A stretch of 36,687 nucleotides of DNA from Deltaproteobacteria bacterium (lineage in GTDB: Bacteria; Desulfobacterota; Dissulfuribacteria; Dissulfuribacterales; QOAL01). The stretch lies in contig WFZW01000239.1 in assembly GCA_015489365.1 (NCBI GenBank), positions 1 through 36,687 of the forward strand, written 5' to 3'. The position numbers and the translations under genes are program-made. Of the stretch, positions 8,529 to 32,268 are shown one piece after another. Numbering within the stretch: position 1 is the stretch's first letter; each line of letters opens with the position of its first letter. The notes beneath the pieces were generated by a model. The model was not told where the DNA came from, did no database searches, and worked only from the letters and a program-made list of their open reading frames with translations.

Positions 8529-9941
8529 ATGAGCATCTATTGCCCTCAAACCCCACCTGAGCTTGTCTCTGTACTTACAAGAATTCGTAAGAAGCGGAAG
8601 GATTACGAAAAATATGGATTCTCCCACATTCAAGGTAGGACCTTAAGGGCCTTCTTCGACCTGGCCCAAGAATATGAAACACTTGAGAATTTCTATCGAG
8701 TAGCCGTCTTTGTGCCCAAAGAATTCATGGGCTTCGATTCCTGTCTCTATCTTATAGATGGCTCTGCCAATGGCCTCTTCATGGCCTGTGATTCCCTGAA
8801 CGGCCTGTCTGTCTGCGGCATGAAACCGCCACGTGGTATAAGGATCAGTGATGAGGCCTATGAGCTGAACGATTCGTTTATAACCCCTATAAAGGGGAAC
8901 CGCAGGCTTTTTTCTGCGAACCCCCTCTCCAGGGCAAAGGACGTTATTGGTCTCTTTGAGGTCTTTCCACTCTCGAGGTTTGAGGACAAGGACAAGCTGT
9001 TTTTTGAAAAATACGCCAACAGGATCGGCTACAACCTGCATTACAAGCTGATTTCACTTCAGAACGAAGAGCATATCAAGTTCATAAATACCCTGGTGGC
9101 CGACATAGATCATAATGTGATCGTACCCAACATGAAATACAAGGTCTTCCTCAATGACCTCAAGAAAAAAATCAGGGGCCTAAGGGGACTAATCAGGGCA
9201 TTAGATGAATACGTAACCGGACGGCTCCCAGAAAGGGATATGGAATCAAACAGGCTGTTAAATATACAAAAAAGCCTCGATGGCCTCGTTGGAGAAATTG
9301 CATCCTCATACGAGGATATAGACAAACATTTCCGCAATACGAGCCTTTTTCTCGAAAGCCTCCTGCGCAGGGATCATTTTGAAAAGGGCCATCTGGTACT
9401 GCGAAAGAAGAATTGCCGGTTCAAAAGAGAGGTGATCGAGCCCCAACTTGAACGATACAGGCAAAGATTAGAGCGACAGGGCATCAGAATAGACAATCTC
9501 ATGGGCGGCATACCGGATGAAGACATACCGCTTGCGGTCGATGTCGGGCTAATCTCCCAGGTATATGCAAACCTATTTTCAAATGCAGAAAAATATTGCC
9601 AAGAGGTGCCAAATGAATTTGGTCAACCGGTCAAATTCATGGCCTATGGACGCGAGATACTGCCTGATTTTTTCGGTGAAGGCAAGCCAGGGATAAAGTT
9701 CAATGTCTTCACCACAGGCCCACATATTCCCCAGGAAGAGGTGGCCCATATCTTTGATGAAGGGTACCGGTGTACCAGTGCACAGAAGAGTCCAGGATCA
9801 GGGCATGGATTGCATTTTGTAAAAAAGGTCGTAGAGGTACATGGGGGAGTGGCTGGCTATGAGACAACGCACCTCGGTAACAACTTCTTTTTTATCCTCC
9901 CGTTGCAAGAGCCTGGGGATGGACAGACACATGCCTGGTGA
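8529..9941 (+). CDS. Orphan cytoplasmic sensor histidine kinase
   Basis: This is a 470-residue soluble protein. Residues of about 35-180 look like a GAF-type sensor domain. A helical dimerisation region follows, with an atypical H-box, LVADIDHNVIVPNMKYK, placing the likely phospho-acceptor at His195. The C-terminal HATPase domain shows the N-box (ANLFSNAEKYC, about 347-357), IFDEGYRCTS (about 409) and the glycine box GSGHGLHFVKKVVEVHGG (about 423-440). There are no transmembrane segments. No response regulator gene is adjacent. The helicase gene downstream overlaps its end. The signal sensed is unknown; Cys residues in the sensor part (C72, C87, C96) could be redox-active, but that is speculation. 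Confidence 0.85.
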   Translation: MSIYCPQTPPELVSVLTRIRKKRKDYEKYGFSHIQGRTLRAFFDLAQEYETLENFYRVAVFVPKEFMGFDSCLYLIDGSANGLFMACDSLNGLSVCGMKPPRGIRISDEAYELNDSFITPIKGNRRLFSANPLSRAKDVIGLFEVFPLSRFEDKDKLFFEKYANRIGYNLHYKLISLQNEEHIKFINTLVADIDHNVIVPNMKYKVFLNDLKKKIRGLRGLIRALDEYVTGRLPERDMESNRLLNIQKSLDGLVGEIASSYEDIDKHFRNTSLFLESLLRRDHFEKGHLVLRKKNCRFKREVIEPQLERYRQRLERQGIRIDNLMGGIPDEDIPLAVDVGLISQVYANLFSNAEKYCQEVPNEFGQPVKFMAYGREILPDFFGEGKPGIKFNVFTTGPHIPQEEVAHIFDEGYRCTSAQKSPGSGHGLHFVKKVVEVHGGVAGYETTHLGNNFFFILPLQEPGDGQTHAW

Positions 9942-12129
9942 TGAACACCTGCCCATGGCAAATTTATCCGGACAACCAGTAGATTTTGCGAGGGATCTCA
10001 ATCCTGAACAACTTGAAGCGGTCGAGACCCTAGATGGTCCGGTCCTGGTGATTGCCGGTGCAGGCAGCGGAAAGACCAGGACCCTTGTCTACAGGGTGGC
10101 GATGCTTATTCACAAGGGTGTCGACCCAGGGCAGATACTTCTCCTTACCTTTACCCGAAAGGCCGCAGCCACAATGCTCGAAAGGGCCTCGAGATTGGTT
10201 GGAGAAAAATGCCAAGAGGTTCAGGGTGGAACGTTTCATGCCTTTTGCAACCACATGCTCAGGAGGTATGCGCCCCGTATTGGATATCCGAACAATTTCA
10301 CTATAATGGACAGGGGGGACGTACAGGACCTGTTACGTCTTCTAGCAAGACAACTCGGCCTTGCCGGTTCATCCCGCACCTTTCCCAAAAAGGGGGCCTT
10401 GGCAACCATATTCAGCAAGGCGGCAAATTCTCACATGGACCTCGTCTCTATCCTTGAAAACCACTATCCGCACCTGCTTGAGTATGCCGCTGCCCTTGAA
10501 CGACTATCCAACGTCTATAACCAATACAAAAAATCCCATGCCTTGATGGACTATGATGACCTTTTGATAAATTGGAGGGATATCCTACTTGAGTGTGAAG
10601 ATGTACGAAGATGGATTGGCAAAAGGATACGTTACATAATGGTCGATGAATACCAGGATACCAACAAGTTACAGGCAGAAATCGTAAAGCTAATGGCCTT
10701 CGGCCACAATAATGTAATGGTCGTAGGTGATGATTCCCAATCCATCTATTCATTCAGGGGGGCGCATTTCAAGAATATACTGGATTTTCCCAGGTTATTT
10801 CAGGGAACAAAAATAATCAAACTCGAAAAAAATTACCGGAGCACCCAACCCAATCTTGACTGTACCAATGCAATCATTGCCAATGCCCGCCAAAAGTTCA
10901 CAAAACGTCTAGTAGCATGCAGAAGTGGGGGAGGACTGCCTGGTCTATATGTGGCCAGGGATGAAATGGACCAGGCACGCTTCGTGCGTCAAAAAGTAGA
11001 GGACCTTCTGACCCAAGGCATCGAACCCACTGAAGTAGCAGTACTTTTCAGGGCCGGTTTTCATTCCTATGCCCTTGAAACCGAACTCAATACCGCTGGT
11101 ATCCCCTTTATCAAACGAGGGGGCAAACGCCTAGTGGACGCAGCACATATAAAGGATATGCTGTGCATCTTACGGATCCTGATAAATCCACTGGACCGTC
11201 TGAGCTGTGACAGGATTTTCTTACTTATTGAAAAGATCGGCCCCAAGACCGCTGAAAGGATCTTCAGCAACCTGCTTTCTAGCCAGGATCCGCTAGATCT
11301 TCTGGCGCACTATCCATCCAAGGCCAAGTGGGCAGCCCATATTAAGGAACTTGGGGCAATGCTTAAGGCGCTTGCCGAATCCGCAACAGGCCTAGATCAC
11401 GCCATGAAAAGGATCGAAAGCTGGTACACGCCATACCTTAAGGGCCTGTATCCAGATGATTGGCCTAGGCGTCAGCAGGAACTGACACAATTGAGAATCC
11501 TTTCTAGTCGTTATCCTGATGCAGTGAGCCTACTTTCAGACCTGGCCATAGATCCACCCGAAAGAAATGAAACCTACCAAAGGGACAGTATCTGTTTGTC
11601 AACCATGCATTCGGCCAAGGGACTCGAATGGAAGGTGGTCTTTATCATCTCCCTGGCAGAAGGACGATTCCCCGCTCCAGCCTCTACCCAACAGGTCGAT
11701 GCAATAGAAGAGGAAAGGAGGCTTTTTTATGTGGCGGCTACCAGGGCCAAGGACCAGCTCTTCTTCTGCTACCCTGCCTTTATCAACCAATCTGGGGCAG
11801 GCCTTCTTCCAGCACGACCTTGCAGATTCCTGGAAGAGATACCGGGTAATCTACTGAAACCCTGCAAACCTCACGAAACAGCCAGGGAAGGACATCCTGC
11901 ACATATGCCAGACCGTTATGATACCAGGGCCTGCATCCCAGGAAATACGGAACATAATGAGATGCCAGCTGGCTCCAGTGGATTCAAGGTAGGTATGAGG
12001 GTGCGGCATCCAATCTTTGGCCCCGGACGGATTGCTAACATCATGGATGCCAAAAGGATAAAGGTGATGTTTGATGTATCGGGAGAGAAAACCCTGCGCC
12101 TTGATTTTACAGAACTAAGCATAATCTAA
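9919..12129 (+). CDS. pcrA: UvrD/PcrA-type superfamily 1A DNA helicase
   Basis: This is a 3'-5' ATP-dependent helicase for nucleotide excision and mismatch repair and for clearing RNA polymerase or recombinase from DNA. The Q-motif region NPEQLEAVE precedes Walker A (GAGSGKTRT, about residues 47-55). Further motifs are LLLTFTRKAA (Ia), VDEYQDTN (II), VVGDDSQSIYSFRGA (III), EKNYRST (IV), STMHSAKGLEWKVVF (V) and YVAATRAKDQLFF (VI). The C-terminal tail (VRHPIFGPGRIANI, IKVMFD) is the Tudor-like module of PcrA/UvrD that contacts RNA polymerase, which favours a PcrA/UvrD rather than Rep assignment. Start: ATG 9919 overlaps the kinase gene by 23 nt. ATG 9931 or 9955 is also possible, and an upstream ATG at 9841 would add 26 residues read out of the kinase gene. 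Confidence 0.93.
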   Translation: MDRHMPGDEHLPMANLSGQPVDFARDLNPEQLEAVETLDGPVLVIAGAGSGKTRTLVYRVAMLIHKGVDPGQILLLTFTRKAAATMLERASRLVGEKCQEVQGGTFHAFCNHMLRRYAPRIGYPNNFTIMDRGDVQDLLRLLARQLGLAGSSRTFPKKGALATIFSKAANSHMDLVSILENHYPHLLEYAAALERLSNVYNQYKKSHALMDYDDLLINWRDILLECEDVRRWIGKRIRYIMVDEYQDTNKLQAEIVKLMAFGHNNVMVVGDDSQSIYSFRGAHFKNILDFPRLFQGTKIIKLEKNYRSTQPNLDCTNAIIANARQKFTKRLVACRSGGGLPGLYVARDEMDQARFVRQKVEDLLTQGIEPTEVAVLFRAGFHSYALETELNTAGIPFIKRGGKRLVDAAHIKDMLCILRILINPLDRLSCDRIFLLIEKIGPKTAERIFSNLLSSQDPLDLLAHYPSKAKWAAHIKELGAMLKALAESATGLDHAMKRIESWYTPYLKGLYPDDWPRRQQELTQLRILSSRYPDAVSLLSDLAIDPPERNETYQRDSICLSTMHSAKGLEWKVVFIISLAEGRFPAPASTQQVDAIEEERRLFYVAATRAKDQLFFCYPAFINQSGAGLLPARPCRFLEEIPGNLLKPCKPHETAREGHPAHMPDRYDTRACIPGNTEHNEMPAGSSGFKVGMRVRHPIFGPGRIANIMDAKRIKVMFDVSGEKTLRLDFTELSII

Positions 12130-12176: not shown

Positions 12177-13559
12177 TTAGCGCTGCCCTTCGAACACCGT
12201 GCTTCCCTCACAACTCAATTCCCCTGAGACCACTGTCCATCTGGCAGTACCATATACCTCATTACCCTCCTTATTGAAGGTAGCAGAGGAACGGATTCCA
12301 AATGAGTTTTCTCCATCGATCCAGGAACCTGATAGCAACACCTCGTTACCATTTATGGATCCCTGCAAGGTCCTGTCGCCGTTTGTAAGGACTATTTTGT
12401 CCCCGCTCACGGCGATATCCACCATTCCGTCAAAGAATCCAGGGGATACTGGGCAAGTAGCACTGGTTTCCGTAGACACAAAAGACCAAGGACCATTTAT
12501 ACCTGAAGAAAAAGGGAAAAAGGAACCTATCTTTCGCCCTTCAAAGGCATATTGGGTCCCCGGGCTTCCAGAATAGGACCACAGCCCCTTCATCTTCTCA
12601 GACGATATCGATCTCACCTCGTACCTATACTCATAACGCCCATCGGAGAACTCCACTACATACCATCCCTGAGGGGAATAAGATACGGAGATAGGGTGCC
12701 CGTTCCATTCCCCAGAGAAAAGTCCATAACCTTCATGTATAATGGCATGGTATTCGGGATAGGTATCTCCCTTATAGGTATCGGAGACCATCCAATCACC
12801 GGAAAGGCTAAGTATATTGAAATAGGTCTCCTGTCTTGGTACAAGCCCGGTGGATGTAGACTGGTCTACCTCGATCTTGAGGGTCCCCTCAAGCCCTACC
12901 AATGGAATCTGCCCGAGGTCCAGCCATAGGGTTGAGACATCATCTGCCAGATAAAGGTCGTCGGCATTGGCAACTGGAAAACCATAATTGGAAAAAAGCA
13001 CGAGTTTGCCTTGGGGCACATAGGCAAACTTGAGACCTGGCGCCAATTGAGGATGTTCCATAAGGAGAAAATACTTCCCGGTCCTGCCGGTACGAATGTC
13101 CATATTGAGATCCAGGTCCTGGGCAGTATTGGTGAAAAAGATCGCCTGTGCAACATCCTGATTTTCCGTGGTATCCTCTATCAGGGCAGTAATATCCGCC
13201 TCCCAGTCCTGGTCGGTTTCCAGGTCCTTGAGAACCAGCCTGCCTAAATAATGGCCAGGATCAACAGAGGAGGCAAGGGCAATTAAAAGTTCCGAGACCG
13301 GCGGAATGGAATTGTCCTCTCCATCCACAGTTGAAGGTGAAGGATTTAGTGCCAGCCAGCTTGGCGAATACATAACCTTCCATCCCCTATTGCTGGCTGG
13401 AAGGGGCAGCCATTGTGAAGATATCATATTGGTCAATGTAATCCTGGCACTGGAACCAATAATGGATGCGGCCATGGCCTGATTGAATGCCCATGAAAAA
13501 CCCAACAAAAGCAATACGGCCAGAGAGAAAACCAATCTCTTCATCACAAAATCAACCAT
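12177..13559 (-). CDS. Secreted protein of unknown function
   Basis: The protein has about 460 residues and a clear signal peptide (KRLVFSLAVLLLLGFSWAFN, likely cut after AMA). The mature part is Ser/Gly/aromatic-rich and beta-like. The middle contains a segment GRTGKYFLLMEHPQLAPG. The C-terminal half has a calycin or beta-sandwich appearance with WNGHPISVSYSPQGWYVVEF and LLSGSWIDGENSFGIRSSAT. No catalytic motif or anchor is seen. On the minus strand AAGGAG lies 6 nt before ATG 13559 (3 nt before ATG 13562) and overlaps the end of the upstream gene, so the two are coupled. It likely acts outside the cytoplasm together with the two upstream proteins. Family not recognised. Confidence 0.75.
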   Translation of the reverse strand: MVDFVMKRLVFSLAVLLLLGFSWAFNQAMAASIIGSSARITLTNMISSQWLPLPASNRGWKVMYSPSWLALNPSPSTVDGEDNSIPPVSELLIALASSVDPGHYLGRLVLKDLETDQDWEADITALIEDTTENQDVAQAIFFTNTAQDLDLNMDIRTGRTGKYFLLMEHPQLAPGLKFAYVPQGKLVLFSNYGFPVANADDLYLADDVSTLWLDLGQIPLVGLEGTLKIEVDQSTSTGLVPRQETYFNILSLSGDWMVSDTYKGDTYPEYHAIIHEGYGLFSGEWNGHPISVSYSPQGWYVVEFSDGRYEYRYEVRSISSEKMKGLWSYSGSPGTQYAFEGRKIGSFFPFSSGINGPWSFVSTETSATCPVSPGFFDGMVDIAVSGDKIVLTNGDRTLQGSINGNEVLLSGSWIDGENSFGIRSSATFNKEGNEVYGTARWTVVSGELSCEGSTVFEGQR

Positions 13560-13569
13560 CATATTCTCC

Positions 13570-16500
13570 TTACCTGGTCCAGGAAATCCAATCGTAGTAG
13601 GCATGGATATTATCTGGCATTATTATTCCAAAAAGAAGATAGTACTTCCCCGCTCCCTTGTAGCCATCCGGGATCACATCGTCCAGGGAACCTACCGAGT
13701 CTGACCAGGTGGTTATAGACCAGTTTGCCACCTCGGGATACAATCCTCTCACAAAGGTCCCATCGGCCCGCCTGGAGAAGAAAAGCCATCCACCGGTCCA
13801 AGGATCGATAAAGGGTGTAACCACGATCAGATATCTGTTGGCAGTGTAGGAGGTGAAATCATTGGACGTGATCTTCCACCTTGCCCCTCCGGCAGGATCC
13901 TGCCATACCAATACTTCAGGTGGCTGAAGTGACGGATTCAGCCATGGCGGCGTCTGTCCATTGTCCATCGTTTCGTCGCCAGAGGAAGCATAGTCCTCCT
14001 CACTTACACCTGTACCCTCAAGATATACGACCATTGAATCCATCAGGTGGTTGAATAACAACCTCAACTCACCATTGACACTTCCTTCACTGGTAGGTTT
14101 AAAGCCTATGACTGCATGAATAGTCTGGCCAGGTGCTATGGTCATACCCTGGTCCAGGCCGTCAACACTAAAGGCGTCTCCCCACAGGTCCACTTGAAGC
14201 AAAGTAGCAGTCCCCTTGCCATCATTGGTGATCGTAAAGTGCTTAGACCTTGTGTTTCCGACAGCGGTATCTGCAAAGCTGATACTGTTGTCAGACAGGA
14301 CTATATCTGGAGAGCCCGACGCAATAGAGGGATCTTGGCCTGTACCACTTACAACTATGTGCACGGGATTGGTCATATGTGAAAACAGTATGTCTATGGT
14401 GCCACTGTATTCACTGGCCGTCTGCGGAGTGAAGGTTATGACCATCCGTGCCGAGTTGCCAGGCTCTATCTCCGTACCGCTACTGACATTCGAGTATGTA
14501 AAACCATCCGACGGCGCATCGATATGAAGAATCTTTGCGGTCTGGCCTCCGTTATTGGATATCTTGACGTTTACGGATTTGGAACTGCCAATACTGACAT
14601 CACCGAATCCTACTGAACTGGTGCTCAAGCTAATAGAGGGAGGATCAGTAGATTCCGATCCAGTACCAGAAAGCTGGATAATAACCGGATTTGTCTCTTT
14701 GAAGATGAAGGCAAGGCGGCTATTATTGCTACCCCCTTGTGTAGGGGCGAACTTGACAACGAAATTTATCGAGGTGCCGGCATCTATCTTCTGGCCCGAA
14801 GATGGCCCACCAAGTACCGTAAATGGTTCCGAGGGTTCTTCCACCTCCACCAGATTGACGGCAGTATTGCCATCATTTTGCAACACCACGTTCTGGTATA
14901 CCACATCCCCTACCGCTACCGACCCAAAGGATACTGCCGAGGGATTAACCGATACCGAAGAAGTGCTGGGGTTCTGTTGCAGTCCAAGCCCCTGGAGATT
15001 GATCGTGACTTCACCGGCGTTCGATGTAATCAATATGTCATCATGGAAGGAGCCCGCTGTAGTCGGCGTGAAGGACACGGTAACAGTAAACTCACCACCT
15101 GGCATCAAATCGATGCCTGTTGTATCGCCATCCTGCATCTCGTCAGGAAGCCCCACATAGGCAAAGGGACTCGACAGGGAGGAAAGGTTCTGTATAGACA
15201 ACATGATGTCGCCTGTATTCTTTATCTTAAAGGATGAAGATGTAGTTTCGCCTGACAGGCGGCTACCAAAATCTATGAGCTTTGGAGACAATAGACTGTT
15301 ATCCATATGAAGGACGGTCAGTTGTGGCTGGCCTATGGTGAAACGCTGTCCATATATGTCCGATCTCGTGGTTGCGAAGTTGCGTGCATCCTTCCACACA
15401 CCCAGAAACATATGGTTCGACTGATTGAAGGCAATGGCAGGTGAATATTGATTCCCAGCGGCTGGGACGCCGTTTGAAGAAACGCTGATGAGATAATTGC
15501 TGCCCCTTAGAGATCCCTCACCGTCTACGTATTGGCCAAAGATATCCAGGTTCTCTACCGAGATCGAACCATTGCGGCCATCCTGCCAGGCTACGAAAAA
15601 GCGCTGATTCGTGTAATCATAACCTACATATGGATTAGTCTGTCTGGAATCTTTTACGATTTCATCGATTTCACCGTCGCTGTTGGTATCCTGGTAACCT
15701 ATTATAAAATTGGTGTTGTACTTGTTGCCGGTCGTGTAAACGAGTTGTCCATAGATCTTGGTATAATTGACCCCGCCACGCAGATCCTCCCAGGCAACGA
15801 GATATTTACCAGAGACAGGATCCGCCGTTACCGACGGGTTGTAGGCAAGGCTATCTGCATCGCTAAGGCGCATGGACATGATTTCGGACAGAGGGACCTC
15901 ATTCATGTGGATACCGTATATATTGGTCACGCTGGGATCCCCATCAAAAAACGAGATTTCCGCCTCGCTGCTAACCCCATCTGCGCCGCAATCGAAACAA
16001 TCCGTAGGGCTATTTTCGATTTCATCGCTATTGTTGGTTACGACGAGCTTACGCCTCACCCCTTCCCATGCCAAAAGGATGTCACCTGATGACTGATCCA
16101 CTGCTATGTCCACATTATTAATCGAGTCGAAAAATTCATAGGTGATGACCTCGCTCGTACAGGCAATGCTATGGCTTATTTCCCTTATATTGATAGTATC
16201 CCCCGTCCGGATAACGTCAGGGGAAACCACCTCGCCTATGCTACCAGAGGTGGGACTGCTGAGCGCTGCAAAGGAAACCATGCTGGTATCCCCAACGGTC
16301 CATGAAAAGGCGTTGGCACTACAGCCAAACGGGTTCCCGGTTACGCGTTTCCTGGCCGATCTGTTCTCTGTCCAGGCTATCCAGAACTGATCCCTGACAG
16401 GGTCATATACTATCTTTGGCTTGGCCCTGCCTAGAAGAAGTGAATCCCCAAAGACTGGGTTGTAACTCAACTCTAATTCGGAAGAAAATTGCAAGGTGGA

Positions 16501-16962
16501 ACAATCGGATACGTCTATGGCCCTGAAAAAGATCCCTCGCCCGCGGGTATCCTGCCATACAACTCCCAGTCGGCTGTCACCCTGGTCATAGGCCACACGG
16601 GGAAAGGTCTGGTTGCCAGGGTCACCTTTTCCGTCGTTATCCTCATCGGATATAAGGACCGGCTCACCGCAGAAATTCCCGTCTCCGTCAACAAACTGGC
16701 CCCAAATATCTGCCCCGGTATTGGTATCAACGGGATTGGCAACGGTTCTCCAATCCTCCCACACTACGAACCATAAATTTTTGTCTGGAAGGGCCACTAC
16801 ATGGGGATTCTGTTGATCGTATTCGGCCACACTGATCTCAATTGGAGGACCCTCATTAGAGGCATAGGCGAATACTGCGATCAACGAAACGGATAAACTG
16901 GCAAAAATCTGTATTAATAAGAGCCGGCGGGAAAGCCGTGCCAACCATTCTAAGCGGATCAT
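13570..16962 (-). CDS. Large exported protein with Hydin/SPD-2-type (choice-of-anchor D) repeats
   Basis: This is an exported protein of about 1130 residues. The start ATG 16962 has AAGGAG 9 nt upstream and yields a signal peptide (LLLIQIFASLSVSLIAVFAY, cut near AYA). Residues of about 30-540 hold repeats resembling a beta-propeller, each with a V-W-x-D-x-R core (FVVWEDWRT, GVVWQDTRG, LVAWEDLRGG, FVAWQDGRNG, LGVWKDARN). Residues of about 550-980 hold four Ig-like Hydin/SPD-2 repeats, with starts such as KLIDFGSRLSGE, VSFGSVAVGD, VGFGDVSIGSS and ISFADTAVGN, each followed by an NTG/NDG/NNG turn. The last 150 residues form a separate Trp-rich domain with GKYYLLFGIIMPDN. There is no LPXTG, autotransporter or type IX signal. 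It may be a surface adhesin or scaffold. Neighbours are the lipoprotein upstream and the secreted protein downstream. Confidence 0.85.
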   Translation of the reverse strand: MIRLEWLARLSRRLLLIQIFASLSVSLIAVFAYASNEGPPIEISVAEYDQQNPHVVALPDKNLWFVVWEDWRTVANPVDTNTGADIWGQFVDGDGNFCGEPVLISDEDNDGKGDPGNQTFPRVAYDQGDSRLGVVWQDTRGRGIFFRAIDVSDCSTLQFSSELELSYNPVFGDSLLLGRAKPKIVYDPVRDQFWIAWTENRSARKRVTGNPFGCSANAFSWTVGDTSMVSFAALSSPTSGSIGEVVSPDVIRTGDTINIREISHSIACTSEVITYEFFDSINNVDIAVDQSSGDILLAWEGVRRKLVVTNNSDEIENSPTDCFDCGADGVSSEAEISFFDGDPSVTNIYGIHMNEVPLSEIMSMRLSDADSLAYNPSVTADPVSGKYLVAWEDLRGGVNYTKIYGQLVYTTGNKYNTNFIIGYQDTNSDGEIDEIVKDSRQTNPYVGYDYTNQRFFVAWQDGRNGSISVENLDIFGQYVDGEGSLRGSNYLISVSSNGVPAAGNQYSPAIAFNQSNHMFLGVWKDARNFATTRSDIYGQRFTIGQPQLTVLHMDNSLLSPKLIDFGSRLSGETTSSSFKIKNTGDIMLSIQNLSSLSSPFAYVGLPDEMQDGDTTGIDLMPGGEFTVTVSFTPTTAGSFHDDILITSNAGEVTINLQGLGLQQNPSTSSVSVNPSAVSFGSVAVGDVVYQNVVLQNDGNTAVNLVEVEEPSEPFTVLGGPSSGQKIDAGTSINFVVKFAPTQGGSNNSRLAFIFKETNPVIIQLSGTGSESTDPPSISLSTSSVGFGDVSIGSSKSVNVKISNNGGQTAKILHIDAPSDGFTYSNVSSGTEIEPGNSARMVITFTPQTASEYSGTIDILFSHMTNPVHIVVSGTGQDPSIASGSPDIVLSDNSISFADTAVGNTRSKHFTITNDGKGTATLLQVDLWGDAFSVDGLDQGMTIAPGQTIHAVIGFKPTSEGSVNGELRLLFNHLMDSMVVYLEGTGVSEEDYASSGDETMDNGQTPPWLNPSLQPPEVLVWQDPAGGARWKITSNDFTSYTANRYLIVVTPFIDPWTGGWLFFSRRADGTFVRGLYPEVANWSITTWSDSVGSLDDVIPDGYKGAGKYYLLFGIIMPDNIHAYYDWISWTR

Positions 16963-17019
16963 ATCGTTCTTCTCCTTGGCAAGTCCAGGTTCATGATGAT
17001 CACAAAGACACACCCTGGA

Positions 17020-18249
17020 TCAGGAGCCCCATGTCTCAGGGGGTTCTGGCGTAGACGCAGGTGGGTTAGCAGGAGGGGTCATCGGTTTTACATGGGGCTG
17101 GCGATCTGTCGGTACGGGCCCTACGCTACCGGGCGATATGGCCGGTGATTCCACACGGCAGGCCTTGAACCGAAAGGAAGCCATCAAGTTATCTGCCAAC
17201 ATCCTGGCAGCCTCCTCCACTGCCGTATCCATGTGAAGTCTCTCGGATGGATCCGCCCATGCGGACTCGGGCTCCACCCGTTTTTCAACACGGTTCTCCC
17301 ACACCACCCTTCCTGTATGGACATCCTGCAGGGCAAGACTCAACTGGATAACCGCCTGGGGCACATTTCCACCCTTTGATGCCAGATAGGCAGCAGCAGC
17401 GCCTGCCCCTCCCCATACTGCAGCATTAAGTCCATTACTGTTGCTGTAGCCTCCCCTTTCGACCGTATGTGACACACCGAACATGGGATGGCCGGATACC
17501 ACCCGTCTTTTACTGGGTGCGTTGAAGGGAGTATTGGCAGAGGAACCGAAAAGTGCCCCCAGTCCTCCACCTACAGCCATGTCTTGCCAAAGGTCATATC
17601 TGCCTGAATCGGCGAATCCAAATAGGAAACCGGAGGCGCTATCGAAAAAGAAAGGAAGGATACCTTGCTGAATTGGGCTTAGAGCCTGGTTGTTGCGTAT
17701 CTCATATTCGACGATACGCCCTCTGAGCACATAGTTTGCCCCGAAATAGCGCCCTATCTGCCTTATGATCCCCTTGTCCAATCCAACCTTGGTAATTTCC
17801 ATCCTGGTCTCTGACTCGTTTAATCCCCTGTTTTGAATCAGGATCGTTCGTATCTCTGACTCCATCTCCTGGGACCATCCCGCACCTATCTCCCTTTTCA
17901 AGTTTACGTAGGCCCGATTCGATTCTGAGGATGTCTTTAAGATACGTATCACCCCGATTTCCGATAGATATTGAACAACGTCTTCTTCGACCGGAACCAG
18001 TACGCCTCTTTGGGCCAATCTATAGGCCAAGGCCTCCTGTATCTTTACCTGGCGACGAAGGGCATCATCCGTATGCCTTCCCACCGAATAGTCGGCAAAG
18101 GGCAGGATAACGATCTGTTCGTTTGTCCCATTCTGGGTAAAAGGGGCATTTACCGGTACGATGGAATCCTTGATCTTCTGTCCGCAACCGGACAGGCACA
18201 TTATCAAAACTACACAAATGACCGGTATGATCTGTCTATGAAGGGACAT
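17020..18249 (-). CDS. Lipoprotein with CsgG/TolB-N-like fold
   Basis: This is a 409-residue lipoprotein. Its signal peptide ends in the lipobox LSGC (Cys22). The region EQIVILPFADYSVGRHTDDA, then EALAYRLAQRGVLVPV, and later ANYVLRGRIVEYEIRN and ALQDVHTGRVVWENRVEKRV follows the pattern of the CsgG/LpoB/FlgO group (strand-helix with an ILPF start and a VVWE end). Two Gly/Ala-rich hydrophobic inserts occur (around GGGLGALFGS and AAVWGGAGAAAAYLA), and the C-terminus is Pro-rich. CsgG forms the outer-membrane pore for curli, whereas relatives are periplasmic; which applies here is unknown. The start has GGAGGAAAATT before the ATG. It is the first gene of the three-gene exported-protein operon, 57 nt ahead of the large repeat protein. 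Confidence 0.75.
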   Translation of the reverse strand: MSLHRQIIPVICVVLIMCLSGCGQKIKDSIVPVNAPFTQNGTNEQIVILPFADYSVGRHTDDALRRQVKIQEALAYRLAQRGVLVPVEEDVVQYLSEIGVIRILKTSSESNRAYVNLKREIGAGWSQEMESEIRTILIQNRGLNESETRMEITKVGLDKGIIRQIGRYFGANYVLRGRIVEYEIRNNQALSPIQQGILPFFFDSASGFLFGFADSGRYDLWQDMAVGGGLGALFGSSANTPFNAPSKRRVVSGHPMFGVSHTVERGGYSNSNGLNAAVWGGAGAAAAYLASKGGNVPQAVIQLSLALQDVHTGRVVWENRVEKRVEPESAWADPSERLHMDTAVEEAARMLADNLMASFRFKACRVESPAISPGSVGPVPTDRQPHVKPMTPPANPPASTPEPPETWGS

Positions 18250-18821: not shown

Positions 18822-20747
18822 CTAATAGTCCATTCCCTGCCACATATCCCTGGTAAATCTAAGGACCTGGTTACGGCCTTTTTCCTTTGCCCTATAAAGG
18901 GCCACATCTGCAAACTTGATAGCCTGCCATATGGCATCACTATCCCCTGGAAATTCACTTATACCGATACTTATGGTCTTTTTGAGCTGCGTCGTACCGA
19001 TTCGAAAGACCGTCTCTTCCACCGATCGCCTTATCCTCTCGGCCGTTGTTATTGCCTCATCTAGTTCACAATCGATCAACAATACAAGAAACTCCTCCCC
19101 TCCAAACCGGATCACAAGATCCGAATCCCTGACATGGGATCCCAAGATCTTGGCAAGGTTTGCCAGTATGAGATCCCCCGTATCGTGGCCAAACTCGTCG
19201 TTTACCTGTTTGAAGTAATCTATATCACACATGAGGATGCCCATGGAGCTGCCGCGGCGCCTGACACCAGCAACCAGGGTATCCAGGTAGTTCTCCAGAT
19301 ACCTGCGGTTATGGAGGCATGTAAGGGGATCCTTCATGGCCATTTCCTGTAATGTTTGGGCAAGCCGTTTTGCCTTCAAAACGGGCAGCGCCTCTACAAG
19401 GTACTGGTTGGCCTCACTCAATGTATTTACGAGACCGGCCTCACGTCTTGGATTGTCAACGAATGGATAGATAAACTGTATCACCCCCAGGATTTCCCCA
19501 CCTACCTGCATGGGTATGCAGGTATGGGTCAATGCATCTGGCCATGGAAAGACCTGGCATATCCCTGGTTGTCCCTGAGATGAGACGATAGAGCCGGTCC
19601 GCACGGCCCTGCATCTTTCCGCTGGACAGATATCAGGGATTTCGCTTCCTAGCTCCTTTGGATATGAATATAATAGGTCAAGTCGTTCCCCTTCGGGCCC
19701 GACCTCAAAGATGACAAAGCTATGGAGCCCGAGTTCTTCCCGGAAAACCTTGGCAAGCCGCATGTATATATCATCAGCGGTTTCATCCCCCTCTATAACC
19801 CTTCTAAATGCACAAAGTTTTCTGATCCTCTGAATCAGATTATTAGTGGCAATCGCAACCTTACCTATCTCATCCTCCCCGAAAACCGGCACGAGTTTGA
19901 TCGATGAACACGATGAATCCTCTCCTGATGCCTTCATGATCTCCTGAAGTATGGTAGCAAGCCTTCGCAGAGGCGATACTAGAAGCCAGCCCCAAGCATA
20001 GCTAGTCAATGTCAGAAAAAGCATAATGATACCGACCAGTACCGTTACCTTTATCTTGTAGTTCTTGATATTCCCCAAGATATCCGCGACAACCCCTCGC
20101 TTTTCCTGACTGATACCTAGCGACACAGCCGACATAATTCTTTCCATCGCCAGAAGATGACCATTGATTCTAAGCCGTAACGTGTCGATTCTTTGTGGAT
20201 TCGGATCACTGTCCGATGACATCAGGACCTTGAATTCCTTTAGGTCCTGTTTGAGCTCCGCCATCTCATTCCATATAGAAAGATCAAAAGCAACTCCAGT
20301 GCCCCGCTCCTTAAATGGGGTGATGGCAAGGGAATCGGCATCCATAGGGGAATCAGCAATGCCACCATTTTCCAGGGGTTCTAACAAACCTCTTATGGCA
20401 TCAAGCTCCTTTTCAGAGCGTTTTATTAACGCAACATTCAATTCTCGCGACCTTGAGGAATCTATACTTCTAATGATTGTTTCAAGGGATTGGAGTTCTT
20501 TCGAGATATCGTGCACCACCTTGATCAATGGGGCCTCCGCATCTTCCAGCCGCTCCAACCGGTGGCTTATACGTCCAAGTGCAGAAAAACTCAACAGCCC
20601 TGAGCTGACATAACCTGTGAGGCAAATGGCAAGCATCAAGGTTATCTTCCAAAAAATGGATACGGCGAGTGCCTTGTGCCACATCCTAGCAAGAAGACCA
20701 CCTTGCGGCCCCTTGGATGAATTTTCCATATGCATCCTGCCCGCCAT
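18822..20747 (-). CDS. Membrane diguanylate cyclase (periplasmic sensor, HAMP, GAF, GGDEF)
   Basis: The product makes cyclic di-GMP. Layout of the 641 residues: TM1 about 30-54; a helical periplasmic four-helix-bundle-type sensor about 55-232; TM2 about 233-257; HAMP about 258-310; GAF about 325-455; GGDEF about 470-635. The GGDEF domain has DPLTCLHNRRYLE, MGILMCDIDYFKQVND and an intact active site RFGGEEF (549-553), so it should be active. RDSD (540-543), five residues before the active-site motif, is a canonical inhibitory I-site. The GAF part carries several Cys (CPAERC, GICQVF, HTCIPM), which could be redox or metal ligands. The start is uncertain among the ATGs at 20747, 20735 and 20729. 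It is monocistronic and may control the exported-protein genes encoded next to it. Confidence 0.92.
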   Translation of the reverse strand: MAGRMHMENSSKGPQGGLLARMWHKALAVSIFWKITLMLAICLTGYVSSGLLSFSALGRISHRLERLEDAEAPLIKVVHDISKELQSLETIIRSIDSSRSRELNVALIKRSEKELDAIRGLLEPLENGGIADSPMDADSLAITPFKERGTGVAFDLSIWNEMAELKQDLKEFKVLMSSDSDPNPQRIDTLRLRINGHLLAMERIMSAVSLGISQEKRGVVADILGNIKNYKIKVTVLVGIIMLFLTLTSYAWGWLLVSPLRRLATILQEIMKASGEDSSCSSIKLVPVFGEDEIGKVAIATNNLIQRIRKLCAFRRVIEGDETADDIYMRLAKVFREELGLHSFVIFEVGPEGERLDLLYSYPKELGSEIPDICPAERCRAVRTGSIVSSQGQPGICQVFPWPDALTHTCIPMQVGGEILGVIQFIYPFVDNPRREAGLVNTLSEANQYLVEALPVLKAKRLAQTLQEMAMKDPLTCLHNRRYLENYLDTLVAGVRRRGSSMGILMCDIDYFKQVNDEFGHDTGDLILANLAKILGSHVRDSDLVIRFGGEEFLVLLIDCELDEAITTAERIRRSVEETVFRIGTTQLKKTISIGISEFPGDSDAIWQAIKFADVALYRAKEKGRNQVLRFTRDMWQGMDY

Positions 20748-27856: not shown

Positions 27857-27988
27857 ATGCGAGACTATACGGAGCACTTGGTGGCAGGTCAAGGATGTAC
27901 CTTCCATACTTGACACGCCATATCAAAAGCGGTAGAGAAGTTATGGTAATTTGATCTTAATCCTCTGCAGCTCTCGTTGAGGTACGCC

Positions 27989-29221
27989 ATGGCACCCTAT
28001 GAGCCAATAGATCTATCGTCCCTTAAAACCAGGGTAAAAGAACAGATTCAAGCCGCCTTCCCCGATGCCCACATTGATTACTGCCTCACCTGTGGACTTT
28101 GTGCCAGCGGATGCCCTGCCACTGGCTTGGAGGGCCTTGATCCTAGAAAATTCCTGAGGCTCCTTGTCCTTGGACAGGACAAGGAAGTACTAAGTACCAA
28201 TTGGATCTATTCCTGCACCATGTGTCAAAGGTGTAAGCACGCCTGCCCAATGGGCATAGACGTTGGAAGGATAGTCTATGAGATAAGGGGCATGCGCCCC
28301 AGGGAGAAAAGGCCCCCAAACCTCCAACGATCCTGCGATCTCCAGAAGAAATCAAACAGTACGGGTATCCCAAACGAAGACTTCGTGTGGGTGGTTGGCG
28401 ATGTTCTGGCCGAGGTCAAGAAAAATGAACCGGAATGGTCAAATCTCGAGGCACCAATAGATAAAAAAGGGGCAACCTTTTACTTGAACCAAAACGCCAA
28501 GGAGCCAACGGTGGAACCCGAAGAGATGGTCCCCTTGTGGAAGATCCTGCATATGGCAGGCATAGATTGGACCTATTCTTCCAAATGGTGGGACGGGGCC
28601 AATTACTGCCTGTTTACCGGGGACCCCGATGACTGGGAATACACGGTACGAGTACAGGCGGAAACCGTAGATGCCCTGGGCTGTAAATATTATATAAATA
28701 CCGAGTGAGGCCACATGTTCTACGCGACCCTGGAGGGGTTGCGAAGATTCAAGATATCCCATAACTTCGAATTCATAAGTATCATCACCCTCTATGCCCA
28801 GTGGATAAGGGAAGGGAGATTGGTAGTCGATCCATCATGGAATACCGAGGGACTGAAATTTACCGTGCAAGATCCCTGCAAACTGGTACGCCAAGGAATA
28901 GGAGACCAGGTGGCCGAGGATCTGAGGTTCGTGATAAAAAAGGTTGTGGGCGCGGAAAACTTTATTGATGTCTGGCCTAACAAGTCGAACAACTATTGCT
29001 GCGGTGGAGGAGGCGGGGCGCTCCAGGCCGGTTTTGTAGAGAATAGAAGGAAATTTGGCAAGATAAAATTCGACCAGTTGGCCTCCACTGGTGCTGACGT
29101 AGTTATAACCCCCTGCCACAACTGCCATACCCAGGTACTCGACATATGTGACCACTATGGTGGAAAATGGAAGACTACCCACCTGTGGAACTGGATAGAA
29201 AAGGCAATGGTGAAGCCATGA
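27989..29221 (+). CDS. Probable selenoprotein: HdrBC-like Fe-S oxidoreductase (ferredoxin plus CCG domains), Sec at in-frame TGA
   Basis: Read through the TGA at 28706-28708, this is one 410-residue protein. Residues of about 31-90 form a two-cluster HdrC-type ferredoxin: YCLTCGLCASGCP and YSCTMCQRCKHACPMGID. The C-terminal half is an HdrB/HdrD/DsrK-type CCG region with YCCGGGGGALQAGF and VVITPCHNCHTQ, which in HdrB bind noncubane [4Fe-4S] clusters that cleave disulfides. Without readthrough the protein would end just before GHMFYATLEGLRRF. The context Asn-Thr-Glu-X-Gly-His matches the ECGH segment of DsrK/HdrD relatives, where X is Cys, so X is probably selenocysteine. A hairpin follows the TGA (listed separately). 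ATG 27989 has TGAGG 6 nt upstream. It overlaps hdrA by 4 nt. Alternative: two separate polypeptides or a sequencing error. Confidence 0.8.
28723..28743 (+). promoter_or_regulatory. Candidate bacterial SECIS hairpin
   Basis: CGCGACCC (28723-28730) pairs with GGGTTGCG (28736-28743), 8 bp including one G-U, around the loop TGGAG. The stem starts 15 nt after the TGA, and a G occupies the second loop position, 24 nt after the TGA. This fits the published bacterial SECIS description (a small apical loop with a G in its first two positions, about 16-37 nt downstream). It would recruit SelB with Sec-tRNA. Confidence 0.6.
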
Positions 29222-32200
29222 GCAACGCTTCCGATAGCCCCAAGGGCTCTGTATTGGTGGTAGGAGGCGGCATTGCAGGTGTTCAAGCCGCCCTTGACCT
29301 GGCAGACAGTGGATTCTATGTCCACTTGATCGAAAAGAGTTCCGCCATAGGCGGCCGGATGTCTCAGTTGGACAAGACATTCCCGACAAACGATTGCTCA
29401 GCCTGCATACTCTCTCCAAAGCTGGTGGAGTGCGGTAGGCATCTAAACATCAACCTCATGACCCTCTCGGAGGTTATGGCCCTTGAAGGCGAAGAAGGTG
29501 CCTTTACCGCCACTATACGCCAGAATCCCAGGTACGTCGATCCTGCAAAATGTATCGCGTGTGGCACCTGCGCGGAAAAATGCCCCAAGAAGGTCCCAAA
29601 CGAATTCGATTTGGGGCTTGGGAAAAGAAAGGCTATTTACCTCAAGTATCCCCAGGCCGTGCCCCTGAAATACGCCATAGATCCTGATCAGTGCATCTGG
29701 CTAAGAAGGCCTGGACGGTGCGGCATGTGCCAAAAGGTGTGCCCATCCGGGGCCATAAATTTCGATGATCAGCCTAGGCAGATACATATCGAGGTGGGTT
29801 CCGTAATACTGGCATTAGGCTTTTCGCCATTTGATCCTTCCATCCTGGATTTTACCGGCTACGGCAGGCTTCCCAATGTCGTAACCGCCATGGAATTTGA
29901 ACGTCTACTTAGCCCTTCAGGGCCATGCCTTGGTCATATGGAACGTCCCTCTGATCACAAGGAACCCAGGCGCATAGCCTGGCTACAATGTGTTGGCTCA
30001 AGGGACATCAATCGTGCCTGTCATGGATACTGCTCCTCGGTATGCTGCATGTATGCAATAAAACAGGCTGTGATCGCCAGGGAACATACCCAGGGGCCTG
30101 ATCTATCCACCAGTATCTTCTTTATGGATATGAGGACCCATGGCAAGGAATTTGAGACCTATTACGACAGGGCCAGGGCCGAGGGTGTAAGTTTCCATCG
30201 CTGCCGGGTGCACAGTATTCTTCCGGCTGGCCACGATGACAATCTGTTACTCAGGTACGTGGGTGATGACGGGCGTATCAAGCAGGAGGAATTCGACCTT
30301 GTCGTATTATCGGTAGGTCTTGAGATGGACAAGCAGGCCGCTGAACTCGCAAGGCGCCTTGGTGTGGAGCTTGACCCCAACAACTTCGTGGCAACCGGTG
30401 CCTTCAGGCCGGTGTCCACCAACAGACCAGGGGTATGCGTGTGCGGGGCAGCCGCTGAACCCAAGGATATACCCCAGTCCGTCATGGAGGCCAGCGCATC
30501 AGCACTGGAGGCCAGCCGACTCCTGGCACCGGCAAGATGGAGTGAAACCCAAAAAAAGGAATATCCTGAGGAAAGAAACGTATGGGCCGAACCGCCCAGG
30601 ATCGGGGTATTCGTATGCTCCTGTGGGATAAACATTGCAAGTGTAATAGATGTGGCCGCGGTCACGGATTATGCACGAACGCTTCCAGGCGTGGTGTTCG
30701 CCCAGAACAACCTGTTTACCTGTTCCCAGGATACCATTAACCAGATGGCAGAGACCATAAAGAGAGAGGGGCTTAACCGGGTGGTAGTGGCCTCGTGTAC
30801 CCCACGGACGCATGAGCCCCTGTTCCAGGAGACCTTAAGAGACGCCGGTATAAACAAATTCCTGTTCGAGATGGCAAACATAAGGGATCAGGATTCCTGG
30901 GTACATCAGGGGTTCCCAGACGAGGCAACACAAAAGGCCAAGGACCTTGTCAGGATGGCAGTGGCAAAGGTACAGCAGGACGAAGCCCTGGCCTATAACA
31001 CCGTACCTGTGGTAAAGAGGGCACTGGTGCTTGGGGCAGGGGTAGCTGGCATGACCGCGGCACTTTCTATTGCAGATCAAGGAATCCCGGTGGTCCTGGT
31101 GGAGAGAAAGGACCGGCTTGGCGGACACGCACGGAAATTTTACCGTACCTGGCAAGGCGATCTGGTACAGGGATACCTTGCTGGCCTGTGCCAGCGGGTA
31201 GAGGAACATCCACAGATCGACCTGCATCTGGAGACCACTGTAGAAAAGGTAGAAGGCTCAGTGGGACAATTCGAGACCCATCTTTCGGATGGTAGCAAGG
31301 TACTACACGGTACAGCGATCATCGCCATAGGCGCCGGTTCCCACAAACCACGAGAAGGCAGATGGAACTACCTCTATGGAAGGCATCCAGAGGTACATGT
31401 ACTCCTGGAGTTGGACAAAAGATTCATCAAAGAAGACCCGGCCCTCAAGGAGAAGAACCAGACCGTATTCATACTCTGCGCAGGTTCCAGGGTACCTGAA
31501 AAACCCTATTGCTCAAGGGTTTGTTGCACACATGCCATTGACCAGGCCCTCCACCTCAAGGAGCTAAACCCTAACATGGAAATATTCATGCTTTACAGGG
31601 ACATCAGGACCTATGGAGAAAAGGAAAGACTGTATCAGAAGGCGCGGGAAAATGGCATTGTCTTCATAAGATATGATCTTGACAACGTCCCCAAGGTCTG
31701 GGAGGAGCAAGGCAATATCCATGTAGAGGTTAAGGATCCTATCCTGGACCGGCCGGTCAGACTACATCCTGACATGCTCGTCCTTGCAACGGCGGTAAGG
31801 CCAAAGATCGATGCAGATGTGGTTTCGAGGGCATTTAAATGTTCCATGAACTCTGACCGTTTCTTCCTTGAGGCCCACATGAAGCTTAGACCTGTAGATT
31901 TTGCCACAGATGGGATATTTATGGCAGGCCTCTGTCACTACCCAAAACCCATGGACGAAACCATTGCCCAGGCCAAGGCCGCTGCCGCCAGGGCATCTAT
32001 TATACTGGCACAGGATGCCATCCCTGCTGAAAGCATCACCGCTGTGGTAGAGCAGAGAAAATGTGTGGGCTGTGGGGTATGTACCATGGTCTGTGCCTAC
32101 AATGCTATACAGCTTGACGAAAACTCCTCACTAGCCAGGGTAGACACCGCCATGTGCAAGGGATGTGGCGCATGTGTGGCTGGATGCCGCTCCGATGCGG

Positions 32201-32268
32201 TAACATTGAAAAATATTGGAAACGAACAGATCATGGCGGCCATCGAGGCTACCATGGAAACCTACTAG
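29218..32268 (+). CDS. hdrA: HdrA-type flavoprotein, double-FAD form
   Basis: This is a 1016-residue electron-bifurcating-type flavoprotein, much longer than the roughly 650-residue methanogen HdrA. Order: FAD domain 1 (VLVVGGGIAGVQAALDLADS, then FPTNDCSACILSPKLVECG); a ferredoxin insert from about residue 112 (CIACGTCAEKCPKK, CGMCQKVCPSGAI); a Cys-rich HdrA motif (ACHGYCSSVCCMYAIKQA); a second HdrA unit from about 461 (IGVFVCSCGINI, VVVASCTPRTHEPLFQ); FAD domain 2 from about 600 (ALVLGAGVAGMTAALSIADQ); another PYCSRVCCTHAIDQAL motif; and a C-terminal two-cluster ferredoxin from about 947 (CVGCGVCTMVCAYNAI, CKGCGACVAGCRSDAV). ATG 29218 overlaps the preceding stop (ATGA). It is the likely bifurcation core linking the CCG protein, the FlxD-like protein and ferredoxin. 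Confidence 0.93.
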   Translation: MSNASDSPKGSVLVVGGGIAGVQAALDLADSGFYVHLIEKSSAIGGRMSQLDKTFPTNDCSACILSPKLVECGRHLNINLMTLSEVMALEGEEGAFTATIRQNPRYVDPAKCIACGTCAEKCPKKVPNEFDLGLGKRKAIYLKYPQAVPLKYAIDPDQCIWLRRPGRCGMCQKVCPSGAINFDDQPRQIHIEVGSVILALGFSPFDPSILDFTGYGRLPNVVTAMEFERLLSPSGPCLGHMERPSDHKEPRRIAWLQCVGSRDINRACHGYCSSVCCMYAIKQAVIAREHTQGPDLSTSIFFMDMRTHGKEFETYYDRARAEGVSFHRCRVHSILPAGHDDNLLLRYVGDDGRIKQEEFDLVVLSVGLEMDKQAAELARRLGVELDPNNFVATGAFRPVSTNRPGVCVCGAAAEPKDIPQSVMEASASALEASRLLAPARWSETQKKEYPEERNVWAEPPRIGVFVCSCGINIASVIDVAAVTDYARTLPGVVFAQNNLFTCSQDTINQMAETIKREGLNRVVVASCTPRTHEPLFQETLRDAGINKFLFEMANIRDQDSWVHQGFPDEATQKAKDLVRMAVAKVQQDEALAYNTVPVVKRALVLGAGVAGMTAALSIADQGIPVVLVERKDRLGGHARKFYRTWQGDLVQGYLAGLCQRVEEHPQIDLHLETTVEKVEGSVGQFETHLSDGSKVLHGTAIIAIGAGSHKPREGRWNYLYGRHPEVHVLLELDKRFIKEDPALKEKNQTVFILCAGSRVPEKPYCSRVCCTHAIDQALHLKELNPNMEIFMLYRDIRTYGEKERLYQKARENGIVFIRYDLDNVPKVWEEQGNIHVEVKDPILDRPVRLHPDMLVLATAVRPKIDADVVSRAFKCSMNSDRFFLEAHMKLRPVDFATDGIFMAGLCHYPKPMDETIAQAKAAAARASIILAQDAIPAESITAVVEQRKCVGCGVCTMVCAYNAIQLDENSSLARVDTAMCKGCGACVAGCRSDAVTLKNIGNEQIMAAIEATMETY

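Follow-up and report, generated by a model that had tools for sequence, protein, structure and literature searches.

A recurring lipoprotein gene unit with beta-rich exported partners in the order Dissulfuribacterales, and its relatives beside secretin operons

Introduction

What might three closely spaced genes for exported proteins do together in a bacterium of the order Dissulfuribacterales? We analyzed a stretch of 36,687 nucleotides (contig WFZW01000239.1 of assembly GCA_015489365.1; hereafter the window) from a genome of 2.49 Mb in 239 contigs, G000 below. Its minus strand encodes, in this order, a lipoprotein (LIP), a protein with a propeller region (PROP) and a third protein (THIRD). 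An earlier, sequence-only reading had placed the three genes in tight order, and the list of open reading frames (ORFs) agreed with it (Table 1); PROP and THIRD overlap by 35 nt as listed, an overlap that is gone if THIRD begins at Met15. Our preferred explanation, which we hold tentatively, is that LIP is an outer-membrane ring or anchor lipoprotein, tied elsewhere to secretin machines and packaged here with beta-rich partners of its own. Genomes are given below as G numbers, families as f numbers and loci as L numbers.

Results

LIP is predicted to have the fold of the CsgG/PelC/TraT/LpoB superfamily

LIP begins with a signal peptide and a lipobox (LSGC), and Cys22 of this lipobox was invariant across 30 aligned homologues. 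We used a medium-confidence AlphaFold2 model of the protein for fold searches. Foldseek returned TraT first (E = 5.9e-6), then PelC (1.9e-5) and CsgG (1.1e-3), and the matches listed by VIA-align included PelC (Z 14.7, rmsd 2.9, 153 aligned), FlgT (13.9), CsgG (12.8), TraT (11.7), TolB (10.5) and LpoB (9.3). The model-based comparisons support a predicted CsgG/PelC/TraT/LpoB superfamily fold for LIP, so that the description of this protein as a CsgG-fold-like lipoprotein was borne out both by its lipobox and by the fold obtained. The fold is common to PelC, TraT, FlgT, LpoB and TolB; therefore, it implies no CsgG pore and singles out no function.

We then compared LIP with protein family models. 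Window LIP passed the cut-off of the LpoB family PF13036 (23.1 vs 22.3 bits) and remained below that of the CsgG family PF03783 (15.7 vs 20.8 bits), and it was not matched by the TraT family PF05818. Across 27 members of the LIP family, the LpoB model matched 24 and the CsgG model 21 at E<=10 (best 1.5e-7 and 1.7e-6, respectively), and the TraT model matched one (E 1.2). The NCBIfam LpoB equivalog TIGR02722 gave window LIP 17.7 bits, against a cut-off of 110.55 bits. Searches of PDB sequences with LIP, THIRD and the profiles of LIP and of the THIRD core returned nothing convincing. In the sister species G001 (L002/L061), one in-frame TAG was reported within the LIP match, and the listed ORF is 401 aa long, compared with 409 aa in the window.

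LIP shares its lipobox and core fold with the CsgG/PelC/LpoB/FlgT/TolB-N superfamily; unlike these proteins, it has an insert of about 100 residues, which the model places between a strand ending at residue 187 and a strand starting at residue 296, with Gly/Ala-rich helices and a hairpin between them. The insert helices had pLDDT values of 66-80 by block, and the stretch before them (residues 188-218) was below 50. Across 27 members, mean Kyte-Doolittle hydrophobicity was 0.48 for residues 219-237 and 0.50 for residues 272-292, the latter with a G+A fraction of 0.52; for comparison, two core helices of LIP had means of -0.67 and -0.11, and the signal peptide 1.64. Excerpts of the TraT literature (PMC11733297, PMC12658005) describe TraT as a decamer that is held by a lipid anchor, has membrane helices and probably forms no open pore, and report chromosomal homologues in contexts largely of unknown function. 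LIP resembles TraT in being matched to it first by Foldseek and may resemble it in using helices as membrane elements, which in LIP are predicted and weakly hydrophobic. LIP is longer than TraT, however, and in most members the two helices are separated by about 30 residues that include a predicted hairpin.

LIP and its partner genes recur together

We assessed how widely these genes occur and found LIP in 44 of the 99 genomes searched, the window's included; of these 44, 39 are among the 46 order genomes and 5 lie outside the order. In 30 of the 46 order genomes, there was a match to a profile covering the THIRD family together with its longer relatives. The core of THIRD consists of two modules, m1 and m2, which alignment showed to be shared with the partner proteins of relatives. 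In a survey of 65 LIP rows from 62 genomes, some of them fragments at contig ends, the gene at +1 of LIP encoded m1, m2 and a protease domain in 22 rows and a fused propeller-m1-m2 protein in 3. The contiguous order LIP-PROP-THIRD, with the propeller at +1 and m1-m2 at +2, was present in 3 rows (G000, G001 and G034). In 2 rows, the contig was cut and only a propeller gene was seen, at +1 or +2; in 2 others, m1-m2 lay at -1. In G008, the order was LIP, a THIRD-like gene with protease, and PROP cut by the contig end. The sequence-only reading had named two outcomes that would count against it, a lipoprotein without the CsgG-like fold and a trio not kept together in other genomes; neither was observed, and the genes do recur together.

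To measure co-occurrence, we searched one even draw of 247 genomes of the phylum from a larger group, the window's own included, with different limits for LIP (E<=1e-10) and the THIRD core (E<=1e-5). The results showed LIP in 32 genomes, the core in 17 and both in 16 (Fisher p 1.7e-15, uncorrected for relatedness). The sole genome with the core and no LIP was G208, an assembly of about 720 contigs.

Other genes were also found near LIP. Its neighbours in the order included EF-P/EpmA in several genomes and GlnD in G019 (tested). No Pel, curli or flagellar genes were found among the annotated neighbours of LIP, most neighbours being without annotation. In G028, the genes downstream of LIP and its protease partner (L090:1219-6038, minus strand) encode a protein with RTX-type repeats, for which NCBIfam scores stayed below cut-off, and a VWA-domain protein that passed the cut-off of TIGR03436; both are possible further surface proteins. 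By eye, a flagellin-like gene lies some kb from the THIRD-core gene of G081 (L095:14104-14970, plus strand), and FtsZ- and FtsA-like genes lie some kb from that of G148 (L188:2-2630, minus strand). An apparent fusion of LIP to its partner in G036 (a 994-aa ORF) was rejected, the stretch between them being XXXX, that is, unread bases.

Relatives of LIP are encoded beside secretin genes

A secretin gene lay within two genes of LIP in 14 of the 65 rows. All 14 belong to the 23 rows from outside the order, and they comprise 5 f25 genomes, 6 of f44/f81 and single genomes of f58, f77 and f52. In the 5 f25 and 6 f44/f81 genomes examined, the secretin gene directly precedes LIP. Pfam confirmed pil genes in four rows, and those in other rows were named by eye. 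In G114, PilN, PilO and Secretin were confirmed ahead of LIP. LIP of G173 is surrounded by PilM, PilP and Secretin and stands between pilP and the secretin gene; G059 has PilO and Secretin ahead of LIP; and in G090, PilO and Secretin lie past the LIP-PROP pair, on the other strand. Relatives of LIP accordingly lie in or beside a pilMNOPQ secretin operon in f25, f44/f81, f58 and f52, and the genes around the f77 relative look like a type II secretion or pilus set.

Further neighbourhoods contained partner genes as well as secretins. In G232, the end of a fused propeller-core protein faces a secretin operon, and G249 has a set of PilN-like, T2SSM-like, secretin, THIRD-like, LIP and subtilase genes with pseudopilin-like motifs nearby; its subtilase gene (L164:10054-11994, plus strand) comes after the secretin, THIRD-like and LIP genes. 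Two f44 genomes encode, after LIP, a different beta-propeller protein with carboxypeptidase-regulatory-like repeats (L171:9668-12805, plus strand; L169:5175-8315, minus strand), an architecture comparable to that of PROP.

The 20 genomes checked for secretins had 1 to 6 each; chance adjacency of LIP to a secretin should therefore be rare, with the limit that rows within a family are not independent. On the LIP tree, neighbourhood types were grouped, with 10 changes compared with a mean of 29.3 for shuffled labels, a result that near-copies help. Within the order, G022 has, downstream of LIP and its protease partner, a gene with a type IV pilin methylation motif (found by pattern, not Pfam; L086:11831 onward, plus strand). 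The window genome has a secretin operon that is split in the same manner as those of f25 and G173 (PilN, PilO and PilP by eye), and window LIP is neither in nor beside a pil operon.

PROP and THIRD are beta-rich proteins linked by a fusion in another family

The sequence-only reading had called the second gene product a propeller-plus-Hydin-repeat protein, and both parts were found. In PROP, which perhaps starts at Met18 (nt 16962, by eye), a pattern devised after the sequence was read picked out seven W-D-R-like repeats between residues 84 and 539. Its propeller region matched no Pfam family and was detected in 12 of the 247 phylum genomes at E<=1e-10, its own included. Four HYDIN/ASH/choice-of-anchor D domains follow: NCBIfam choice_anch_D matched with E 2.9e-48, and scores exceeded the cut-offs of NF012200 (162.9 vs 45 bits) and PF22544 (128.2 vs 25.5 bits). 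PROP resembles choice-of-anchor D/HYDIN-type Ig repeat proteins in these four repeats; unlike them, it adds a W-D-R propeller and has LIP as a neighbour. No PilY1-type Pfam match was found in PROP at E<=1.

THIRD, described earlier as a secreted beta-rich protein, was indeed predicted to be all-beta (mean pLDDT 59.0), and its start is perhaps Met15 (nt 13562, by eye). Its core matched no Pfam family, the best Pfam E value among 15 members being 0.0021. A fold search with THIRD returned generic Ig-like matches, with a best Z of 7.5 among the matches listed.

The sequence-only reading had also proposed that PROP and THIRD share a module marked by a GKY(F/Y)LL segment. Both strings are present, and an hhalign comparison of the PROP C-terminus with the THIRD module placed its match on this segment with a probability of 3.1%, but 2 of 30 column-shuffled controls scored higher (3.5% and 8.1%) in a comparison of low power, with three sequences on the PROP side. 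The m1 hidden Markov model (HMM) at full sensitivity gave no match to window PROP at E<=0.01. We compared sequences of THIRD relatives outside G001 and G034 and found that the segment mostly reads G-x-LY-x-L, not GKYFLL. A shared module was accordingly not supported. PROP and THIRD are linked instead by family f52 (G090, G254 and G275), because there a single protein directly downstream of LIP comprises the propeller, the HYDIN repeats and the m1-m2 core.

The partner protein of many relatives ends in a retropepsin-like protease

In 26 of the 46 order genomes, the C-terminus of the THIRD-like protein is a retropepsin-like protease (domain HMM, 27 proteins). Among 10 proteins scanned, PF13975/PF13650 was found in 7 of the 8 that bear the core. 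The protease domain has a VDTGA-like motif and is related to TIGR02281, scoring below its cut-off. Bacterial retropepsin-like proteases reportedly occur in P. aeruginosa and Rickettsia. Neither Pfam nor the domain HMM detected this domain in THIRD, whose C-terminal beta region occupies its place. PF13975 had one match each in G003 and G023, at the partner gene, and no match in genomes G000, G001, G034, G254, G026 and G249; relocation of the protease elsewhere in the window genome was rejected, there being no PF13975 match. The window lineage may have lost the protease, rather than the others having gained it late, a choice that the tree does not decide.

Features and surroundings of the locus

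The features of the locus are listed in Table 1. The diguanylate cyclase gene upstream, which the sequence-only reading had linked to the trio as a sign of biofilm or adhesion control, encodes a complete GGDEF domain (Pfam) and is separated from LIP by 572 nt. Among 52 neighbourhoods, a diguanylate cyclase was recognized at LIP only in the window and G001, which belong to one genus. The cyclase domain was thus confirmed as complete, but the adjacency of the gene to LIP did not extend beyond that genus, and we rejected it as a member of the unit.

Table 1. Positions in the window of the three genes, their parts and the neighbouring cyclase gene
Feature	Position	Strand	Basis
LIP: CsgG/PelC/TraT/LpoB superfamily lipoprotein (predicted fold), 409 aa	17020..18249	-	ORF; PF13036; fold matches
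LIP signal peptide and lipobox LSG-C22	18184..18249	-	sequence read directly
LIP Gly-rich predicted helix, residues 220-236	17542..17592	-	model
LIP Gly/Ala-rich predicted helix, residues 271-292	17374..17439	-	model
PROP: exported propeller and HYDIN-repeat protein, 1147 aa	13570..17013	-	ORF; Pfam; NCBIfam
PROP propeller region, residues 40-570, seven W-D-R-like repeats	15304..16896	-	repeat pattern
PROP four HYDIN/ASH/choice-of-anchor D Ig-like domains, about residues 576-1003	14005..15288	-	Pfam, NCBIfam
PROP C-terminal Trp-rich region with GKYYLLFG	13570..13983	-	sequence; similar in G001, G034
THIRD: exported all-beta protein (predicted), 475 aa	12177..13604	-	ORF; structure model
THIRD core, modules m1 and m2, residues 150-352	12549..13157	-	alignment; shared with relatives' partner proteins
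THIRD C-terminal beta region, residues 353-475	12177..12548	-	occupies place of retropepsin-like domain in 26 order genomes
Diguanylate cyclase, outside the recurring unit	18822..20747	-	Pfam

On the plus strand of the window, a histidine-kinase-like gene (8529-9941) and a UvrD-type helicase gene (9841-12129) overlap by 101 nt as listed, and this pair is kept together beside LIP in several relatives. The same strand encodes, at 27977-32268, a 4Fe-4S protein and a large FAD and 4Fe-4S protein, a pair that we take to resemble electron transfer of the heterodisulfide-reductase type. No RNA families or tRNAs were found in the window, and promoter and terminator scans returned 8 and 5 sites, compared with 9.6 and 6.1 in shuffled sequences.

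Discussion

Under our preferred explanation, LIP would sit in the outer membrane as a lipoprotein and would probably oligomerize there into a ring. Other members of its family are encoded beside secretins of type IV pili or related machines; in this order, LIP would form a separate unit and would hold, or help to place on the cell surface, an exported partner with the m1-m2 core. The retropepsin-like domain that ends this partner in relatives could serve to trim either the partner or nearby surface proteins. Because the window genus has no such protease and its partner protein is separated from LIP by PROP, a role as surface scaffold or adhesin is likelier here than one as processing enzyme. 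Any tie of the unit to pili in the window organism is inferred.

Several observations weigh against this explanation. The LIP model, built from 30 sequences, had a mean pLDDT of 62.9 and a pTM of 0.45. Membrane insertion of LIP is uncertain, because hydrophobicity is low in the two insert helices and, in the mature window protein, peaks at residues 196-214 in a low-confidence region. The secretin-linked LIPs are on long branches of the tree, where joins may be false. Within the order, a link to pili was seen only in G022, with its pilin motif, and at the divergent second LIP of G036, with a secretin gene four genes away; the secretin operon of the window genome, on contig C233, has no LIP. Of the 65 LIP rows, 20 showed none of the neighbours sought, many of them at contig ends. 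The THIRD-core profile was built mainly from LIP-adjacent genes (14 of 15 rows), which favours co-occurrence. No core was detected in 16 of the 32 LIP genomes, 12 of them secretin-linked, and LIP therefore does not need the THIRD core. The four genomes of family f47 have LIP and the core on separate contigs, with neighbourhoods that do not join up. A gene that looks by eye like a murein ligase is found upstream of LIP in G022 and G032 and upstream of the pair in G026.

The alternative that survives best, although we consider it unlikely, makes LIP a dedicated part of the type IV pilus (a ring or a pilotin of the PilQ secretin) that is encoded elsewhere in this order, with PROP and THIRD as accessory adhesins in a PilY1-like role. 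The secretin genes directly before LIP in f25 and f44/f81, the position of LIP inside the operon of G173, the split-type secretin operon of the window genome, the pilin motif in G022 and the f44 propeller proteins with carboxypeptidase-regulatory repeats are all consistent with it. Against this, LIPs of the order adjoin EF-P/EpmA, GlnD or other genes, the pilin motif is near one member, and PROP lacks a PilY1-type Pfam match at E<=1.

The proposal of the sequence-only reading, that LIP is a CsgG-like secretion pore exporting PROP and THIRD to the surface, now appears improbable. It draws on the superfamily fold, on the many family members matched by the CsgG model and on the large exported partners encoded beside LIP. 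CsgG has two membrane beta-hairpins per subunit, which form a beta-barrel. The LIP model instead has helices in its insert, and its last strand and last helix are only 8 residues apart, which would leave no room for a second membrane hairpin, a comparison made with the general CsgG topology rather than residue by residue. In addition, window LIP scored below the CsgG cut-off. A curli system was rejected, since no curlin repeats were found in the 46 order genomes, the window's included, by a search that detected the Escherichia coli positive control.

That the three are lineage-specific exported proteins without a joint function is, in our estimate, highly improbable: adjacency is repeated over several families, propeller and core are fused in f52, and 16 of the 17 core genomes also have LIP, observations to be set against partners that differ between families, the LIP rows with no neighbour sought, the separation in f47 and the half of sampled LIP genomes without the core. 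We give the smallest chance to LIP as an LpoB-like periplasmic regulator of a cell-wall synthase with PROP and THIRD as incidental neighbours, for which the PF13036 matches and the murein-ligase-like genes speak, but not the low equivalog score or the co-occurrence of LIP with the THIRD core, adjacent in many rows.

A bolder extension of the preferred explanation, which is distinctly unlikely, would make LIP an undescribed outer-membrane ring component of the type IV pilus machines of this phylum; its fold would be TraT-like and its membrane elements helical. In some lineages, LIP would then have left the pil operon and turned into an independent platform for beta-rich surface proteins, which may or may not include an aspartic protease domain. 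If this were true, plasmid TraT might be distantly related to a lipoprotein of pilus machines, a relationship relevant to the origin of surface exclusion.

The fold of LIP and the repeat domains of PROP are of kinds already known. Among the titles and abstract openings of the open-licence literature matches listed, we found no description of the unit, of the THIRD core or of the secretin neighbourhood of the LIP family. Our analysis defines a recurring and testable envelope unit in this order together with a protein core that has no Pfam family, and adds a neighbourhood link between CsgG-fold lipoproteins and secretin operons. An excerpt of PMC10553843 places Seep-SRB2 in the order Dissulfuribacterales. 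By inference from this, Seep-SRB2, whose members are partners of methane-oxidising archaea, belongs to the order of the window organism, and the way in which such bacteria make contact with their partners is a matter of interest.

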